Assembly: GCF_016019955.1 (NCBI RefSeq)
Contig: NZ_JAECRZ010000001.1
Location: forward strand, 372,001-436,000
Reading direction: 5' to 3'
Source: Thiosulfatihalobacter marinus
GTDB lineage: Bacteria; Pseudomonadota; Alphaproteobacteria; Rhodobacterales; Rhodobacteraceae
Length of the DNA: 64,000 bases
The translations under genes and the position numbers were made by a program. The notes under the pieces were generated by a model, which saw nothing but the letters and a program-made list of their open reading frames with translations, did not search any database and had not been told where the DNA came from. This document shows positions 7,919-32,541 of this stretch, in pieces (the stretch's first letter is position 1; each line of letters opens with the position of its first letter).

Positions 7919-9343
7919 TCAGCCGTCTTGCGCCGCCGCTTCGTATCGGGCCGCGTCCATCAGGCGGGCGAGCGTTTCCTCGCGGCCCAGGACCAGCATC
8001 ATGTCGAATACGCTTGGTGTCACCGCGCGCCCCGCAAGCGCCGCCCGCAAGGGACCAGCCATCTTGCCGAACTTGATTTCGCGGGCTTCTGCGAAAGCGC
8101 TTGTGACAGCCTCCAAACCGTCTCGCGTCCAGCTAGCATTTTGCAGCTGCGGCGTCAATTCTGTCAGTATACCACGGGATACTGAATCAAGGTTTTTCGC
8201 GGCCTTCGCATCCGGTTCCAGCGGGCGATCGGCCAATACAAAGTGAGCTTTTTCAATAAGTTCCGGGAAGGTCTTGGCGCGCTCTTTGAGGCAATACATC
8301 GCAGTCCCCAAAAGGGTGGACTTTTCGTCGCTGAGGGGGGGCAGCCCTGTTGCGACGAGAAATTCCTGCAATTCTTGCAGCAGTGCGGCATCGTCCGCGG
8401 CGGCGATGTGCTGGCCGCAGAGGTTTTCCAGCTTTCTGGTGTCGAACCGGGCCGGGCTTTTGCCGATTCCGTCAAGATCAAACCACGCCCGGGCCTGCGC
8501 ATCGGTGAAATATTCGTCATCGCCATGGCTCCAGCCCAGGCGCGCGAGGTAGTTGCGCATTCCCGCCGCCGGATAGCCCATCTTCTGGTATTCCCCGGCC
8601 CCCAGCGCGCCGTGGCGCTTGGACAGCTTCTTGCCGTCCGGTCCGTGGATCAGCGGAATATGCGCCCAGACCGGCACGTCCCAGCCCATGGCCTGATAGA
8701 TCATCATCTGGCGCGCCGCGTTGTTGAGATGGTCGTCGCCCCGGATCACGTGGGTCACGCCCATGTCATGGTCATCGACAACCACCGCCAGCATGTAGAC
8801 CGGCGTGCCGTCCGAGCGCAGCAGGATCATGTCGTCAAGCTGGTCGTTGCGAATGGTGACATCGCCCTGGACCTGATCGCGGATCACGGTTTCGCCGGTC
8901 AGAGGCGCCTTGATGCGGATCGCGTGGGGGGCGTCGGGATGGGTTGCCGGGTCGGCATCGCGCCAGGGGCTGCGATAGAGGGTCGATCTTCCCTCGGCGC
9001 GGGCCTGTTCGCGGAAGGCGGCGATTTCGTCCTGCGTGGCAAAGCATTTATACGCCTTGCCCTGGGCCAGAAGCTGGTGCGCCACCTCGGCGTGACGCGC
9101 GGCGCCCTCGAACTGGGACACCACGTCGCCATCGTGATCCAGGCCCAGCCAGGCCAGCCCTTGCAGGATGGCGGCCGTTGCCTCGGGGGTGGAGCGGGCG
9201 CGGTCCGTATCTTCGATCCGCAGCAGGAACTTGCCGCCCCGGCCACGGGCGTAGAGCCAGTTGAACAGCGCGGTGCGCGCGCCGCCGATATGCAGGAAAC
9301 CGGTGGGGGATGGGGCGAAACGGGTGACGACCTGGGCTGACAT
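7919..9343 (-). CDS. gltX: Glutamyl-tRNA synthetase
   Basis: Class I aminoacyl-tRNA synthetase, 474 residues. The HIGH motif appears as [20 protein letters not shown] and the KMSKS motif as [11 protein letters not shown]. The C-terminal helical anticodon-binding domain is complete. The start at 9343 (MSAQVV) puts the protein in register with the family. An ATG nine codons upstream (9370) would place the CtrA-like box at 9352-9367 inside the gene. Divergent from comEC. A second, shorter GlxRS-like gene (gluQ) lies at 12319. Confidence 0.96.
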
Positions 9344-9351
9344 CGGGGAGC

Positions 9352-9367
9352 TTAACCTTTCGGTAAC
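9352..9367. promoter_or_regulatory. CtrA-like box between gltX and comEC
   Basis: TTAAC (9352-9356), six bases, then GTAAC (9363-9367). It matches nine of ten fixed positions of TTAAC-N6-TTAAC, the extended form of the CtrA consensus TTAA-N7-TTAA. It ends 56 bp before the TTG start of comEC. CtrA dependence of com genes is known from R. capsulatus GTA recipient work. Binding here is inferred. Confidence 0.6.
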
Positions 9368-9423
9368 CATGCATGATCTAGCGTTGGCGCCTGTCTATCG
9401 ACCCGCCCGAGAGAGGACAAGGC

Positions 9424-11508
9424 TTGCGCGCCGTCAACGAGATCCGGCTGGCCCTGCTGGGGCAGAGGGGGCATTTGTTTGCCTGGGCACCGGTTTTCCT
9501 TGGGGTTGGGATCGGTCTGTATTTCCTGTTGCGGCGCGAACCGCCGGTTGCGGCGCTGTGGGGCGCGGGTATCGGGGCGATGTGCCTTGGCGCCGGTGCG
9601 CTGCGCGGCGGCGCGGTCTCTGGTCCGTTGCTTTGGGCGCTGGCGCTGTTGGTGGCGGGGTTTGCGCTGGCCGGGGCGCGGGCGCATGCGGTGGCCGGGC
9701 CGGTTCTGACCTGGCGCTATTACGGGCCGGTCGAAGGCACCGTGGTGGGGATAGACCGGTCGGCCTCGGACGCGGTGCGCCTGACCCTGGCCAATGTGGT
9801 GCTCAAGGGCATTGCCCCCGCCGACACGCCGCGCCGGGTGCGGGTGTCGTTGCACGGATCCCAAGGCTATATCGATCCGGCGCCGGGACTGCGGGTGGGG
9901 CTGAGCGGCCACCTGTCGGCCCCGAACGGGCCGGTGGAGCCGGGCGGGTTCGATTTCCGGCGCCATGCCTGGTTTCAGCGGCTTGGCGCGGTGGGCTATA
10001 CCCGCAGCCCCGTGCTGGAACTGGGGCCACCCGCCGGGCGGCGGGACGTGTTTGCCTTTCGCATGTGGCTGTCGGGGGCAATTCAGGCGCGGATGCCCGC
10101 CGATGTGGCCGGGTTCGGCGCGGCCGTGACAACCGGGGACCGGTCCGGCATTGCGCTGTCGACCATCGAGGCGCTGCGGATATCGAACCTGGCGCATCTG
10201 TTGGCGATTTCCGGTTTGCACATGGGGCTGTTGGCCGGGTTCGTGTTTGGCGCTGTGCGGGTGGGGCTGGCGCTGGTGCCGGCGGTGGCGTTGAGGATCC
10301 CCACGCGCAAGGTGGCGGCGGTGGCGGCGCTGGTGGCTTCGGCGGGATATCTGATGCTGTCGGGGGGCAGCGTGTCGACCGAGCGGGCATTCGTGATGAC
10401 AGCGGTGATGTTGATGGCGATCCTGTTCGATCGCCGGGCGCTGAGCCTGCGGGCGGTGGCGATGGCGGCGCTGGTGGTTCTGGTGTTGCGTCCCGAGGCG
10501 CTTTTGGGGCCGGGATTTCAGATGTCCTTTGCCGCGACAACGGCGCTCGTGATCTGTTTTGGATGGTTGCGTGACCGCGAGATCGCGCTGGGGCCACGCT
10601 GGATGCGGCCGGTGGCGGCGGTGTTCCTCTCGTCGCTGGTGGCCGGGCTGGCCACGGCGCCCTTTGCGGCGGCGTTCTTTAACCAGGTGGCGCATTATGG
10701 CCTGCCTGCCAACCTGGTGTCGGTGCCGGTCATGGGCATGGTGGTGGTGCCCTCGGCCGTGGCGGCGGGGCTGTTGGCGCCGCTGGGTCTGGAGCAGATC
10801 GGGCTTGTGCCGATGGCGCTGGGGCTGCGCTGGATACTGGGCGTGGCGGAATTCGTTGCCGGGCTGGAGGGCGCGCGTGGCACGGTGCCCAGCCCGCCGG
10901 GCTGGGTGATACCGGTGCTGGCGTCGGGCGCGTTGGGGCTGGGGCTGTGGCAGGGCAAGGCGCGGTGGGCCGGGGTTGTGGTGATGGTGCTGGCGTTGGC
11001 GGGCTGGACGCAGGCGCGCCGCCCGGATGTGCTGATTGCCGATAGCGGGGCGCTGGTTGGGGTGATGACCGTGCAGGGCCGCGCGCTGTCCAAGCCGCGC
11101 GGACAGGGGTTCGTGGCGCGCAACTGGCTGGAAAACGACGGCTCGGCGCTGGATCAGGCCAGGGCAGCGGGGCTGTGGCGGGCCCCGTCGGCGGAAAGCC
11201 GGAAGGGCGTGCGCATCGTTGATCTGGGCGAAACGGGGCGCCTGATCCATGTGCAGGGCAAGACCGGGCTGGCCGGGTTCGATGGGTGCGCACCGGGGGA
11301 TGTGGCGGTATTTTCGGAACAGGCTGGCGGGGAATGGCCCTGTGATGTTTACGATCCCGCCCGGTTGAAACGGCTGGGCGCGGTGGCCATCCGGATGCGC
11401 AACGGTCAGCCGATGTTCCGCACCGTGCGCGAGGCCAGTGGCACCCGGCTTTGGAGCGGCGCGCGCCGGCAAGGGAAATCGCCGGCAAGGCAAACCCGCG
11501 AAAGATAG
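9424..11508 (+). CDS. comEC: ComEC/Rec2 family DNA-uptake channel
   Basis: Polytopic inner-membrane protein (694 residues) expected to pass single-stranded DNA into the cytoplasm. The N-terminal part has two or three membrane helices and a DUF4131-like soluble domain. The competence domain (about residues 215-490) starts with the family hallmark HLLAISGLHMGLLAGF and continues as a run of membrane helices. The C-terminal 150 residues are where a metallo-beta-lactamase domain usually lies, but no HxHxDH metal motif is seen. TTG start with GAGAGGA six bases upstream. In R. capsulatus ComEC is needed for GTA recipients. A CtrA-like box precedes it. Confidence 0.9.
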   Translation: MRAVNEIRLALLGQRGHLFAWAPVFLGVGIGLYFLLRREPPVAALWGAGIGAMCLGAGALRGGAVSGPLLWALALLVAGFALAGARAHAVAGPVLTWRYYGPVEGTVVGIDRSASDAVRLTLANVVLKGIAPADTPRRVRVSLHGSQGYIDPAPGLRVGLSGHLSAPNGPVEPGGFDFRRHAWFQRLGAVGYTRSPVLELGPPAGRRDVFAFRMWLSGAIQARMPADVAGFGAAVTTGDRSGIALSTIEALRISNLAHLLAISGLHMGLLAGFVFGAVRVGLALVPAVALRIPTRKVAAVAALVASAGYLMLSGGSVSTERAFVMTAVMLMAILFDRRALSLRAVAMAALVVLVLRPEALLGPGFQMSFAATTALVICFGWLRDREIALGPRWMRPVAAVFLSSLVAGLATAPFAAAFFNQVAHYGLPANLVSVPVMGMVVVPSAVAAGLLAPLGLEQIGLVPMALGLRWILGVAEFVAGLEGARGTVPSPPGWVIPVLASGALGLGLWQGKARWAGVVVMVLALAGWTQARRPDVLIADSGALVGVMTVQGRALSKPRGQGFVARNWLENDGSALDQARAAGLWRAPSAESRKGVRIVDLGETGRLIHVQGKTGLAGFDGCAPGDVAVFSEQAGGEWPCDVYDPARLKRLGAVAIRMRNGQPMFRTVREASGTRLWSGARRQGKSPARQTRER

Positions 11509-25041: not shown

Positions 25042-26601
25042 CTACTCCCACTCGATGGTCCCCGGCGGTTTGGAGGTCACGTCATAGGTGACGCGGTTGA
25101 TGCCCTTGACCTCGTTGATGATACGGGTGGCGGTTTCGCCGAGGAATTCATGCGTGAACGGGTAGTAATCGGCTGTCATCCCGTCCACGGAGGTGACGGC
25201 GCGCAGCGCGCAGGCGTAATCATAGGTCCGACCGTCCCCCATCACGCCCACCGTGCGCACGGGCAGGATGGCGACGAATGCCTGCCAGATTTCATCGTAA
25301 AGGCCGTGTTTGCGGATCTGGTCGATATAGACGGCATCGGCCTCGCGCAGGATGTCGAGCTTTTCACGAGTGATTTCGCCGGGGCACCGGATGGCCAGGC
25401 CCGGACCGGGAAAGGGGTGACGGCCGATGAAGCTGGGCGGCAGGCCGAGTTCACGCCCCAGGGCGCGGACTTCGTCCTTGAACAGTTCGCGCAGCGGTTC
25501 GACCAGTTTCAGGCCCATCTTTTCGGGCAGGCCGCCGACATTGTGGTGTGACTTGATCGTCACCGAAGGCCCGCCCGAGAAGGAGACCGATTCGATCACG
25601 TCGGGATACAGCGTGCCCTGGGCCAGGAATTCCGCGCCGTCGATCTGGTCGGCGTATTTCTGGAACACGTCGATGAACAGCTTGCCGATGATCTTGCGTT
25701 TGGTTTCGGGGTCGGATTGCCCCTCGAGCGCGCCAAGGAACAGCTCGGTTTCGTCGGCGTGGATCACCGAGAGGTTCATGTTGTCACGGAACATGCCCAC
25801 AACTTCTTCGGCCTCGTTCTTGCGCAGAAGGCCGTGATCGACAAAGACGCAGGTAAGCTGATCGCCGATCGCCTCGTGGATCAGGGCCGCCGCCACCGAG
25901 GAATCGACGCCGCCGGACAGGGCGCAGATGACATTCTTGTCGCCCACCTGTTGCCGGATGGTTTCGACCATCTCGTCGCGATAGGCGCCCATGGTCCAGT
26001 CGCCCCTGAAGCCTGCCAGGCGGACGAAATTCTCGTACAGTTTCGCGCCGTTGGGTGTGTGGTGCACCTCGGGGTGGAACTGAACCGCGTAGAAATGGCG
26101 CGCGGTGTCGGCGGTGATGGCAAACGGCGCGCCGGGAGAGGTGCCGAACACCTCGAAGCCGGGGGCCAGGGCGCTGACATGATCGCCATGCGACATCCAG
26201 ACCTGTTCGCGCCCTGTCTGGAACCAGCCGTCAAGCAGGTCGAGCTTGCCCTTGGGATCGACATAGGCGCGGCCGAATTCGGCGGTGCCGTGGCCTGACT
26301 GAACCGTGCCGCCCAGTTGGGTCATCATCACCTGCTGGCCATAGCATATGCCCAGGATCGGAACGCCCAGCTCAAAGATCTCTTGCGGCGCGCGCGGAGA
26401 GCCCTGGCGGGTGACGCTGTCCGGACCGCCCGAGAAGATGATCGCCCGGGGCGCCATCTGGCGGACCATGTCCATGGTCACGTTCTGGTAGGGGTGGATT
26501 TCGCAATAGACGTTCAGCTCGCGCAGGCGGCGCGCGATGAGCTGCGTTACCTGGCTGCCGAAGTCGATGATGAGAAGGCGGTCATGGGATGTGTCAGACA
26601 T
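25042..26601 (-). CDS. guaA: GMP synthase (glutamine-hydrolysing)
   Basis: Converts XMP to GMP with ATP and glutamine. The 519-residue protein has the class I amidotransferase domain with the nucleophile in [11 protein letters not shown] and the His/Glu pair in [10 protein letters not shown]. The ATP-pyrophosphatase domain has [12 protein letters not shown], and the C-terminal dimerisation domain ends in KPPGTIEWE. Full length. Divergent from the MgtC-type gene with 165 bp between. Confidence 0.97.
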
Positions 26602-29150: not shown

Positions 29151-29444
29151 TCAGAGTTCGGTTTGCGAAGCGCGCAGGAGGCGCGCTTCGCCCATCATGG
29201 CGATCAGAATATCGACATGCCTGACCAGTGAATAGGCCGCGTCGCCGCTGCGCCGCTGGCTGTCGAGCTGGGTTTCCATTTCCATCAGATGCATCAGGGC
29301 CGGGCCGCTGCGCGGAAGCCGGCCATAGCCCATATGGCGCTTGAGGTGCTGGTCGCGCCGGTAATCCGGCGCGCCGGCGCGCGCGGCGCGGATCAACAGA
29401 CGTGGGCGGCGGAGATTGGCGAGGATGCCAAGAAGATCGTGCAT
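29151..29444 (-). CDS. Small DUF6477 family protein
   Basis: A 97-residue protein with the N-terminal LRRPRLLIRAARAGAPDYRRDQHLKRHMG stretch followed by a helical ALMHLMEMETQLDSQRR region and a hydrophobic C-terminal helix. This pattern fits DUF6477, which I know only from Rhodobacteraceae. The gene lies head to head with the gafA-like gene, 242 bp apart, with the CtrA-like box between. In R. capsulatus a small gene next to gafA (recalled as rcc01866) is also needed for GTA production. Whether this is its counterpart is inference. Confidence 0.7.
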   Translation of the reverse strand: MHDLLGILANLRRPRLLIRAARAGAPDYRRDQHLKRHMGYGRLPRSGPALMHLMEMETQLDSQRRSGDAAYSLVRHVDILIAMMGEARLLRASQTEL

Positions 29445-29576
29445 GGAATCAGTCCTGTTGTTGTTCCGCCTCAGTTTGCACAACTTAAGCGGGTGTTGCC
29501 TGTTGGCGAGATCAGCGTACGCGGGATTTCAGACTGTTTAGGATTTGGAAACAATCATGGTCAAACGGGTCGAATA

Positions 29577-29592
29577 TTAACAGCTAGGTAAC
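29577..29592. promoter_or_regulatory. CtrA-like box between the DUF6477 gene and the gafA-like gene
   Basis: TTAAC (29577-29581), six bases AGCTAG, then GTAAC (29588-29592). Both half-sites are identical to those of the box before comEC, with a different spacer. It ends 94 bp before the gafA-like ATG. One mismatch (G for T) from TTAAC-N6-TTAAC. Confidence 0.62.
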
Positions 29593-29686
29593 AATTCAAT
29601 TCTAAGTTGTGGAAAATTTTAGGGAAAACCTGTGTGTAAGCATGGCAACTTTCCTGACCCGTACGGAACAATAGGAGACAGGTGGC

Positions 29687-30766
29687 ATGCGTATGGAAAG
29701 CCCGATGAACGACCTGCCCGAATGGGTACCTGAAAGCGTTTCACGCTATGTGGCGCATACCGAAGATGGTGTTTCGATCCGCGAACTGGCCCGGCGCGAG
29801 GGGTGCCATGCCTCGACCGTGCTGCGCCAGATCCGCAAGCTGGAGGCAAAGCGGGACGATCCGCTGATCGATGCCGCGCTGGAACGGTTTCGCAGGAATG
29901 GCGCGGTGCCGGCAGGGGCCAAGGGAGTGACACCCAAGGTGCCGGACAGCGAAACGCTGCGCCGCGAAGGATTGCGGGTGCTGCGGCGGCTATGTGAAAG
30001 CGGCGCGGTGCTGGCGGTGGCGCCGGGGATGGACAAAGCGGTCGTGGTGCGTGACCGGGGCGATGGCGGATCGGCCAAGACAGCGGTGATCGCGCGCGAA
30101 TTCGCACAGGCGATGGTGCTGAAGGACTGGATCCGGTGCAGCGCCACGGGCCGGGTGGCGCAGTACACGATCACCGCCGCGGGGCGTTTGGCGCTGAACC
30201 GGATGCTGGCGGAACAGGAAAACGCCGCGCAGGGGTTTGCCGACGCGCAGACACCTTTTGCCGGGCAGCGTGGTATGATCGGGGACAAGGTATTGCGTGA
30301 GAAGGGGCGCACGCGGCGGGTGCGTTTCAACATGACCGAAAGCCCGCTGGCGGCGCTGTCGCGGCGCAAGGACAAGGATGGGCAGCCGTTTCTGAGCGAG
30401 GATCAGGTGGCGGCCGGAGAACGGCTGCGCGAAGATTTCGAACTGGCGCAGATGGGCCCGAATGTCAGCCAGAACTGGGACCGGTTCCTGACCGGGCCAA
30501 GCCATGGCGGCTATCGTGCGGATAGCGGGATCGGCGAGGGGCCGGGCGCGGCGCGCCAGCGGGTGGCGGATGCGCTGGGTGATCTGGGCGAGGGGCTGTC
30601 GGATGTGGTGCTGCGCTGCTGTTGTTACCTGGAAGGGCTGGAAGCGGCGGAAAAGCGGCTGGGCTGGTCGGCGCGGTCGGGCAAGATCGTGCTGCGCATC
30701 GCGCTGACCCGGCTACGCGAGCATTACCGGGGCCGGGCCGGCGGGGCGGGCGATTACATCGGCTGA
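29687..30766 (+). CDS. gafA: GafA-like activator of the gene transfer agent (HTH plus DUF6456)
   Basis: A 359-residue cytoplasmic protein. A helix-turn-helix lies at about residues 28-52 (GVSIRELARREGCHASTVLRQIRKLEAK). A linker with basic, proline-rich parts follows. The C-terminal DUF6456 domain (about 203-347) contains ESPLAALSRRKDKDGQPFL, GERLREDFELAQMGPNVSQNWDRF and the closing SGKIVLRIALTRLREHY helix. R. capsulatus GafA has this fused layout, and Caulobacter splits it into GafY and GafZ. GafA binds GTA promoters and contacts RNA polymerase. AGGAG lies nine bases before the ATG. Function here is by architecture plus the CtrA-like box; the capsid cluster is outside the window. Confidence 0.72.
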   Translation: MRMESPMNDLPEWVPESVSRYVAHTEDGVSIRELARREGCHASTVLRQIRKLEAKRDDPLIDAALERFRRNGAVPAGAKGVTPKVPDSETLRREGLRVLRRLCESGAVLAVAPGMDKAVVVRDRGDGGSAKTAVIAREFAQAMVLKDWIRCSATGRVAQYTITAAGRLALNRMLAEQENAAQGFADAQTPFAGQRGMIGDKVLREKGRTRRVRFNMTESPLAALSRRKDKDGQPFLSEDQVAAGERLREDFELAQMGPNVSQNWDRFLTGPSHGGYRADSGIGEGPGAARQRVADALGDLGEGLSDVVLRCCCYLEGLEAAEKRLGWSARSGKIVLRIALTRLREHYRGRAGGAGDYIG

Positions 30767-31371: not shown

Positions 31372-31590
31372 CGCGAATACCTTGATTGATTGTGATTGCG
31401 GCGGGGTTTACATCGATTCTAAATTCGGGGGCAATGCTGCAATTGCATGGTCGATGATGCTGCTGCGGCAATCGCCTGACCGGGCGGCAGGGAATGTGCC
31501 GCGGGCATGGCAGCTCTGCGTTTCTGGCACTAGCGGGTTGGCTGCGGTATGCTATGCACGCTGAAATCTATTCTGCCCGAGGATGAACCG

Positions 31591-32541
31591 TTGCGTGATC
31601 TGAAACTGCCCCAACAGCGCCACCCGGAAAAGGCACACCGCCCGGACAATGCCCAGCCGCGCAAGCCGAAATGGATCCGCGTCAAGGCCCCGACCGGCGA
31701 GGGCTATAACGCCACCCGGAAAATCATGCGCGACAACAAGTTGGTGACGGTCTGCGAAGAGGCGGGTTGCCCCAATGCGGGCGAATGCTGGAGCGCGGGC
31801 CACGCCACCATGATGATCATGGGCGAGATCTGTACGCGGGGCTGCACATTCTGCAACATCGCCACCGGCAAGCCAGATGCGCTGGACGCGTTCGAGCCGG
31901 GCCGCGTGGCGGATGCGGTGCAGAAACTGGGCCTGAACCATGTGGTGATCACCAGTGTGGACCGGGATGACCTGGAAGATGGTGGCGCCGAGCATTTTGC
32001 GCAGACCATTCGCGCGGTGCGGCATCGCTCGCCCAAGACCACGATCGAGATTCTGACGCCCGATTTCCTGAAATGCGCGCCAGACGTGCTTGATATCGTC
32101 GTCGCGGCCCGACCGGACGTGTTCAACCACAACTTGGAAACGGTCCCCGGCCTGTACCCGCAGGTGCGCCCCGGCGCGCGCTATTTCCACAGCTTGCGGC
32201 TGTTGCAGCGGGTCAAGGAGATGGATCCGTCCATCTTTACCAAGTCCGGCATCATGGTCGGGCTGGGCGAGGACAAGCAGGCGGTGCATCAGGTGATGGA
32301 CGACATGCGCGCGGCGGAGATAGATTTCCTGACCATCGGGCAATATCTGCAACCGACACCGAAACACCATGGCGTGGACCGGTTCGTGACCCCCGAGGAA
32401 TTCGCGGGCTACGAAAAGGCGGCCTATGGCAAAGGCTTCCTGATGGTGTCGGCAACGCCGCTGACGCGGTCGTCCTATCACGCGGGCGACGATTTCGCGC
32501 GGCTGCGCGCGGCGCGCGAGGCGCAGTTGGTCAAGGGCTGA
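31591..32541 (+). CDS. lipA: Lipoyl synthase
   Basis: Radical-SAM enzyme that inserts two sulfurs into octanoyl groups on E2 and H proteins. Both cluster motifs are complete: the auxiliary cluster [12 protein letters not shown] and the radical-SAM cluster [13 protein letters not shown] at 31591 was chosen as start because it gives the family N-terminus (M)[13 protein letters not shown] and has GAGGA seven bases upstream. The frame is open further to an ATG at 31549, but those residues are not family-like. Predicted length is 316 residues. Confidence 0.95.

Follow-up and report, generated by a model that had tools for sequence, protein, structure and literature searches.

A gafA gene with a CtrA-type promoter box in a Rhodobacterales genome, and the apparent loss of this box in one clade of the genus

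The window analysed here is a stretch of 64,000 nucleotides (C11:372001-436000), and its central question is whether it holds an activator of gene transfer agents (GTAs) of the GafA type, placed under the regulator CtrA. The original prediction, made from the letters of the DNA, proposed a 359-residue GafA-type protein at 29687-30766, with an N-terminal HTH, a C-terminal DUF6456 domain and a CtrA-like box in its promoter. A further question is how far the box is kept in the family and in the genus of the window's organism.

The gafA gene, its neighbourhood and the GTA cluster

The gene (start at C11:401687) lies in the order guaA (-), MgtC, mttB (+), DUF6477 (-), gafA (+), peroxiredoxin (-) and lipA (+), with these features:

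25042..26601, minus strand: guaA, published gafA synteny marker
29151..29444, minus strand: DUF6477 gene, divergent to gafA (PF20083, E 3e-37), coordinates counted from its ATG, though it may begin at a TTG at 29483
29687..30766, plus strand: gafA, GTA activator of 359 aa, domains by Pfam and predicted structure
31549..32541, plus strand: lipA, published gafA synteny marker

The neighbourhood of gafA between guaA and lipA, with a divergent rcc01866, is a published synteny (PMC9638019), and the DUF6477 gene is by position alone the counterpart of rcc01866. A DUF6477 gene lies upstream of gafA and divergent to it in 131 of 133 gafA loci.

The reading frame of 359 aa begins with an ATG preceded by AGGAG and has an in-frame stop 15 b upstream. 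Together with the synteny and the profile search, it confirms the proposed protein and its C-terminal domain: DUF6456 (PF20057) takes residues 212-348 with 208 bits against a cut-off of 26.3 (E 5e-62), which places the protein with GafA/GafZ and not with another family. The proposed N-terminal HTH is recovered as a fold. Pfam HTH families match below their cut-offs only (best MarR, E 1e-3, residues 24-55), and in an AlphaFold model (34 sequences, pLDDT 80.7, pTM 0.57) residues 5-74 resemble DnaA domain IV on a DnaA box (1j1v; Z 8.0, 70 aligned, rmsd 1.9). Residues 87-186 of the model resemble MarR/PadR winged helices (Z up to 7.6) and residues ~280-359 sigma region 4 (Z up to 8.3). Scores near 8 are suggestive rather than proof, and may reflect just a common arrangement. 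DnaA-like N-terminal and sigma-like C-terminal parts were proposed for GafA of R. capsulatus, and the outer two parts of the present model agree with them (PMC9638019). Foldseek with the model gave no match at E 0.001, and a PDB search with the GafA sequence gave two matches only, both above E 0.1.

The assembly (66 contigs, 4.16 Mb) has one DUF6456 gene. Its product is 74% identical to that of Shimia abyssi, 56-58% to those of Ruegeria and 56% to that of Cereibacter ovatus. The closest match filed as a phage, MW462191 (L200), has 38% identity over GafA residues 144-347. The neighbours of the DUF6456 gene in MW462191.1 are a transcriptional regulator, a small DNA-binding gene and a sulfur acceptor, and they look like the mucR / DnaA-like / sufE neighbourhood of gafYZ in Hyphomicrobiales (PMC9638019). 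A phage origin of this match is therefore rejected, and the entry is probably a misfiled bacterial contig.

GafA of R. capsulatus (rcc01865) is likewise a fused N-HTH and DUF6456-type protein with guaA/lipA synteny and a divergent neighbour of the rcc01866 type; it has 382 aa against 359 here, where the function is predicted from sequence. Caulobacter shares DUF6456, found also in a Caulobacter control genome, and GTA activation. It differs in having two proteins, GafY and GafZ, and in the part taken by IHF and the RogA repressor. In the window, the DnaA-like N-terminus and DUF6456 stand in one 359-aa frame, which is not the two-gene arrangement of GafY/GafZ. In Dinoroseobacter shibae, gafA (Dshi_1584) also has an in silico CtrA site and a neighbour of the rcc01866 type (Dshi_1585), but is described as adjacent to ctrA (PMC6473078), whereas the two genes are on different contigs in the window's genome, neither of them near a contig end. 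A ctrA-gafA spacing of 27-42 kb on one contig is seen in 12 of 25 genus genomes, with and without a box before gafA alike. CtrA is present in the window's genome and is above the family cut-off in 25/25 genus genomes.

Some 87-101 kb upstream of gafA, and also on C11, is the GTA cluster (locus L006; C11:301029 to 314978). Thirteen of its 15 scanned ORFs match phage/GTA families. Those of the first part are TerL, portal, S78 prohead protease, capsid, connector (weak), head completion and tail completion; those of the second part are tail tube, GTA gp10-type, DUF2460, hub, NlpC/P60 and a 1306-aa g15 with GTA_TIM. The TerS-like ORF at C11:301029, which is without Pfam match, and one 226-aa ORF match none. 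A genome devoid of a GTA capsid cluster was named beforehand as an argument against GafA; here the capsid gene is among the matches, and the cluster looks intact. Between the YceG gene and terS there is a GC-rich inverted repeat followed by a T-run (L006:4942-4976), which may end transcription of the gene before it or act as a leader terminator of the kind involved in anti-termination of the Caulobacter GTA. A prophage on contig C7 (L007, G000:C7:18000-37999) combines a lambda-type portal and a phage lysozyme with tail genes resembling those of a GTA (DUF2460, hub), and its GTA_TIM match falls into two pieces inside one open frame.

Domain layout, single copy, synteny, the divergent DUF6477 gene, the GTA cluster and the CtrA box described below agree in identifying the window gene. 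Its sequence makes it an ordinary, well-supported GafA, from a Rhodobacterales genome that among named organisms is closest to Shimia.

The CtrA-type box and its conservation in the family

The gafA promoter holds the following elements:

29491..29499, no strand assigned: conserved GGGTGTTGC between the divergent DUF6477 gene and gafA, from the family consensus and the genus alignment
29535..29555, plus strand: conserved distal promoter element TGTTTAGGATTTGGAAACAAT, from the box-aligned family consensus and the genus alignment
29577..29592, plus strand: CtrA-type box TTAAC-N6-GTAAC, exact, TTAACAGCTAGGTAAC
29603..29609, plus strand: -10-like TAAGTTG, presumed role; family consensus TTAGGTTG at about box +26..+33

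The box is exactly as predicted, one base off TTAAC-N6-TTAAC. Exact copies of TTAAC-N6-GTAAC number two in the window, against 0.01 expected from shuffles, and four in the 4.16 Mb genome, where the same pattern read backwards occurs once; by such counts the box at 29577-29592 is more than chance. A looser search with a 17-base consensus at two mismatches has little discriminating power (2 found, 2.5 expected). The arrangement of GafA and CtrA box, variant included, is correct but already published, and is not new. Fogg 2019 names the identical variant in the gafA promoter of R. capsulatus and aligns it with gafA promoters of 14 species; CtrA binding has there a Kd of 55 nM, and mutating either half-site brings transfer down to 10-22% of wild type (PMC6363796).

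The end of the box is 94 b from the gafA ATG, as compared with the "usually 65-71" b given by Fogg 2019 (PMC6363796). Relative to the conserved HTH codon S43, the box starts at -236, inside the family range of -288 to -205 (median -226), and the difference in distance lies thus in the start codon and leader. The element at 29535..29555 is, by its position, a possible candidate site of the GafA C-domain; in R. capsulatus, GafA-C binds promoter fragment 3, in which the predicted -35 element lies (PMC9638019). Other conserved blocks of the box-aligned family are GGGGTGTTGC at -87..-78, TTTA..TTTT..AAA.AAT at ~-39..-21 and TTAGGTTG at +26..+33. The +26..+33 block might serve as a -10, with the CtrA box covering the -35, a reading that does not fit the start site inferred by Fogg from RNA-seq, ~87 b before the ATG (PMC6363796).

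DUF6456 was found in 275 of 296 family genomes. The locus set (n=134) combines the window's own locus with 30 that each represent a different genus, a further 23 of the genus and 80 named loci; the N-terminus is readable in 133, and the upstream sequence is long enough in 132. The set is neither random nor independent, being drawn from the 30 best DUF6456 scores of the 296 genomes and the 80 nearest named loci. TTAA-N7-GTAA is present in 101/132 gafA upstream regions (shuffle mean 0.63, largest 3), and the textbook TTAA-N7-TTAA in 2/132, no more than in shuffles. The "mismatch" is, therefore, the conserved form. Outside the box-less clade described below, 11 of 15 other regions have a box with one mismatch (shuffles 0-6). 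Of the 30 loci taken one per genus, 24 have the exact box and six a box with one mismatch.

The DnaA-box-like motif TGTGNATAA is found in 24/132 gafA leaders against 0.37 in shuffles, downstream of the position of the CtrA box. These leader sites appear real but patchy; the window's own leader has no perfect copy and only degenerate versions, at 29608-29639. In EMSAs at the gafA promoter, the GafA N-domain gave non-specific binding only (PMC9638019).

A GafA operator TTTGRAAACA, common to gafA and GTA promoters, was considered and rejected, being absent from the GTA promoter of the window's genome. With up to one mismatch it is found in 13/23 gafA regions (shuffle mean 2.3, largest 6) and 5/23 GTA regions (shuffle mean 1.8, largest 4). 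The best shared 8-mer, TGGAAACA, occurs in seven gafA and four GTA promoters; the lower count, set against a shuffle maximum of 3, is too weak.

The second exact box of the window precedes comEC:

9352..9367, plus strand: second exact TTAAC-N6-GTAAC, between gltX and comEC
9424..11508, plus strand: comEC, DNA-uptake channel (PF03772, E 2e-60)

This box overlaps the first codons of gltX if its ATG is at 9370, and is intergenic if at 9343. TTAA-N7-GTAA stands within ~165 b before comEC in 23/25 genus genomes, including 13 of the 14 without a gafA box; the exact form is absent in G186 and G312, and the box of G299 is farther away than in others. ComEC of R. capsulatus takes up GTA DNA, the recipient side of GTA exchange (PMC10883770), and comEC of D. 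shibae was reported as CtrA-regulated (PMC6473078). With the gafA and comEC boxes, GTA production and GTA reception each have a boxed gene in this one window.

The gene, its domains, the box, the synteny, the GTA cluster and CtrA are all found in this genome, and an explanation leading from CtrA through gafA to the GTA cluster is, as a whole, very probable. CtrA would bind TTAAC-N6-GTAAC at 29577-29592, as in R. capsulatus, and turn gafA on. GafA would contact DNA via its DnaA-like N-terminal and sigma-4-like C-terminal parts and, by analogy with R. capsulatus, RNA polymerase omega via its central part, and would then switch on the GTA structural cluster ~87-101 kb upstream. CtrA binding, polymerase contact and GTA activation are in this scheme carried over from R. 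capsulatus. The original prediction held further that CtrA acts on the R. capsulatus GTA only indirectly, via the activator. This stands for the structural-gene promoter and may not extend to all GTA genes: CtrA-P and GafA were proposed to act jointly on the genes for head spike, tail fibre and lysis (PMC9638019).

Absence of the box in one clade of the genus

Twenty gafA regions have neither the exact nor the one-mismatch box, and 16 of them are genus members or equal to one: 13 genus genomes and three titled loci (Shimia sp. Alg240-R146, a Shimia MAG and an uncultured Shimia) with GafA identical to that of genus members. The remaining four are L094, L138, L150 and L157. Counting G308, which was read apart, 14 of 24 readable genus genomes are without the box and 10 have it; G311 is unreadable. 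At the box position, the box-less clade has no one-mismatch copy. In the genus GafA tree, which includes five pairs of identical proteins, a branch (86/95; 88% of 200 bootstraps) separates the box-less rows from the rest. The independent tree of ctrA-locus DNA groups all 14 box-less genomes (100/99, all 200 bootstraps). Since they are grouped on both trees, a single loss of the gafA box is the simplest account. In the genus alignment the flanks are collinear, and the box and the next bases are replaced in the box-less rows.

A palindrome like CACAGC-N8-GCTGTG takes the place of the CtrA block in L041, L042, L047 and L055-L060 (9/13 box-less rows tested, loosened pattern). DnaA-box-like TGTGGATAA sites are also seen at the place of the lost box in part of the clade. 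Another regulator may be in charge of gafA in part of these genomes.

The ctrA promoter has GTAA-N7-TTAA starting 66-74 b before ctrA in 25/25 genus genomes, including 14/14 box-less ones. Upstream of ctrA, L171 and L186 have an inverted repeat CAACC-N3-GGTTG, with imperfect versions in other boxed genomes, which resembles the TAGGTTG block of gafA promoters. Between the 10 boxed and 14 box-less genomes (G311 left out), fixed differences in CtrA are confined to columns 68, 93, 234 and 235. None of them is inside the presumed limits of the DNA-binding domain, and a changed DNA specificity of CtrA is rejected as the cause. TerS is present in 25/25 and GTA_TIM (g15) in 23/25 genus genomes, and 13/14 box-less genomes have GTA_TIM over the whole domain; it is absent in G186. 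The gafA domain is open in 13/14 box-less genomes and frameshifted in G308, which may be an assembly error. Loss of CtrA, an evident change in its specificity and decay of the GTA are thus all discounted as causes of the missing box. GTA_TIM is absent in G186 (L069) and G317 (L078) and partial in G298 (L073), with TerS present, possibly a decay of the GTA in single species.

A move of the box to the GTA promoter is rejected: none was found in the 25 terS upstream regions of 350 b, scanned for TTAA-N7-[GT]TAA on both strands and for GTAA-N7-TTAA on the forward strand. A move elsewhere upstream of gafA is rejected as well, no exact form in any orientation being found over ~1 kb (895-1000 b) in the 16 box-less rows and G308. 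One-mismatch forms in another orientation or place occur in 6/17 box-less rows (L042, L047, L049, L050, L054, L118), which by a rough estimate is about what five forms over 230 b would give by chance. TTTCC-N6-TTTAA[AC], common to L049, L050, L054 and L118, is possibly a weak CtrA site in reverse orientation.

The balance leans slightly to a history in which the box and the -10-like block were lost once, freeing gafA from CtrA, with CtrA keeping its own and the comEC promoters. Half-sites, indirect control and weak reversed sites are possible alternatives to independence of gafA from CtrA in the clade.

Rival readings and meaning of the loss

The box-less genomes bear also on the window itself. 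They would need a CtrA-independent drive of gafA if their GTA is made and no other CtrA site is there, and with 14/24 readable genus genomes lacking the box and 13 of these 14 keeping g15, members of the genus can do without the box. A genuine GafA with a box that is no working CtrA site here, and driven by something else, is conceivable on this ground. It is nonetheless very unlikely, as the box is kept in the 10 other readable genus genomes and in 101/132 family regions, and EMSA and mutant data established the identical variant in R. capsulatus.

Decay of the kind seen in some relatives, such as the frameshifted gafA of G308, the missing GTA_TIM of G186 and G317 and the partial one of G298, would make the window's GafA a remnant in a genome with a non-working GTA. 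In the window's genome gafA is open and 13/15 cluster ORFs match their families, and this reading is held to be highly improbable. Least credible of all, and close to negligible, is that the DUF6456 protein serves a prophage rather than the GTA. The prophage on C7 would be an example, with its split GTA_TIM protein, DUF2460 and hub genes, but gafA has its place on a different contig, C11, within the conserved surroundings of guaA and lipA, and DUF6456 and TerS are in 25/25 genus genomes, as against a second GTA_TIM set in G000 only. The preferred explanation is that CtrA acts through gafA on the GTA cluster.

The window itself adds one more organism under a published rule, and its value is in the box-less exception. 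That one clade of the window's own genus lacks the gafA box appears to be new: among the publications listed for Shimia, GTA and CtrA and for CtrA sites of gafA promoters, none mentions such a loss in its title or at the start of its abstract. A box that was called remarkably conserved is missing in a clade that keeps gafA, CtrA and the GTA genes as well as both other CtrA boxes examined. If true, production and uptake of GTAs, elsewhere under one regulator, would be separately controlled in the box-less clade, and the clade would be a natural experiment on the need for CtrA in starting GTA production. Comparison of boxed and box-less Shimia would then bear on whether CtrA is an obligatory gate of the GTA or one of several inputs, and on whether the making and the taking up of GTAs must be co-regulated.
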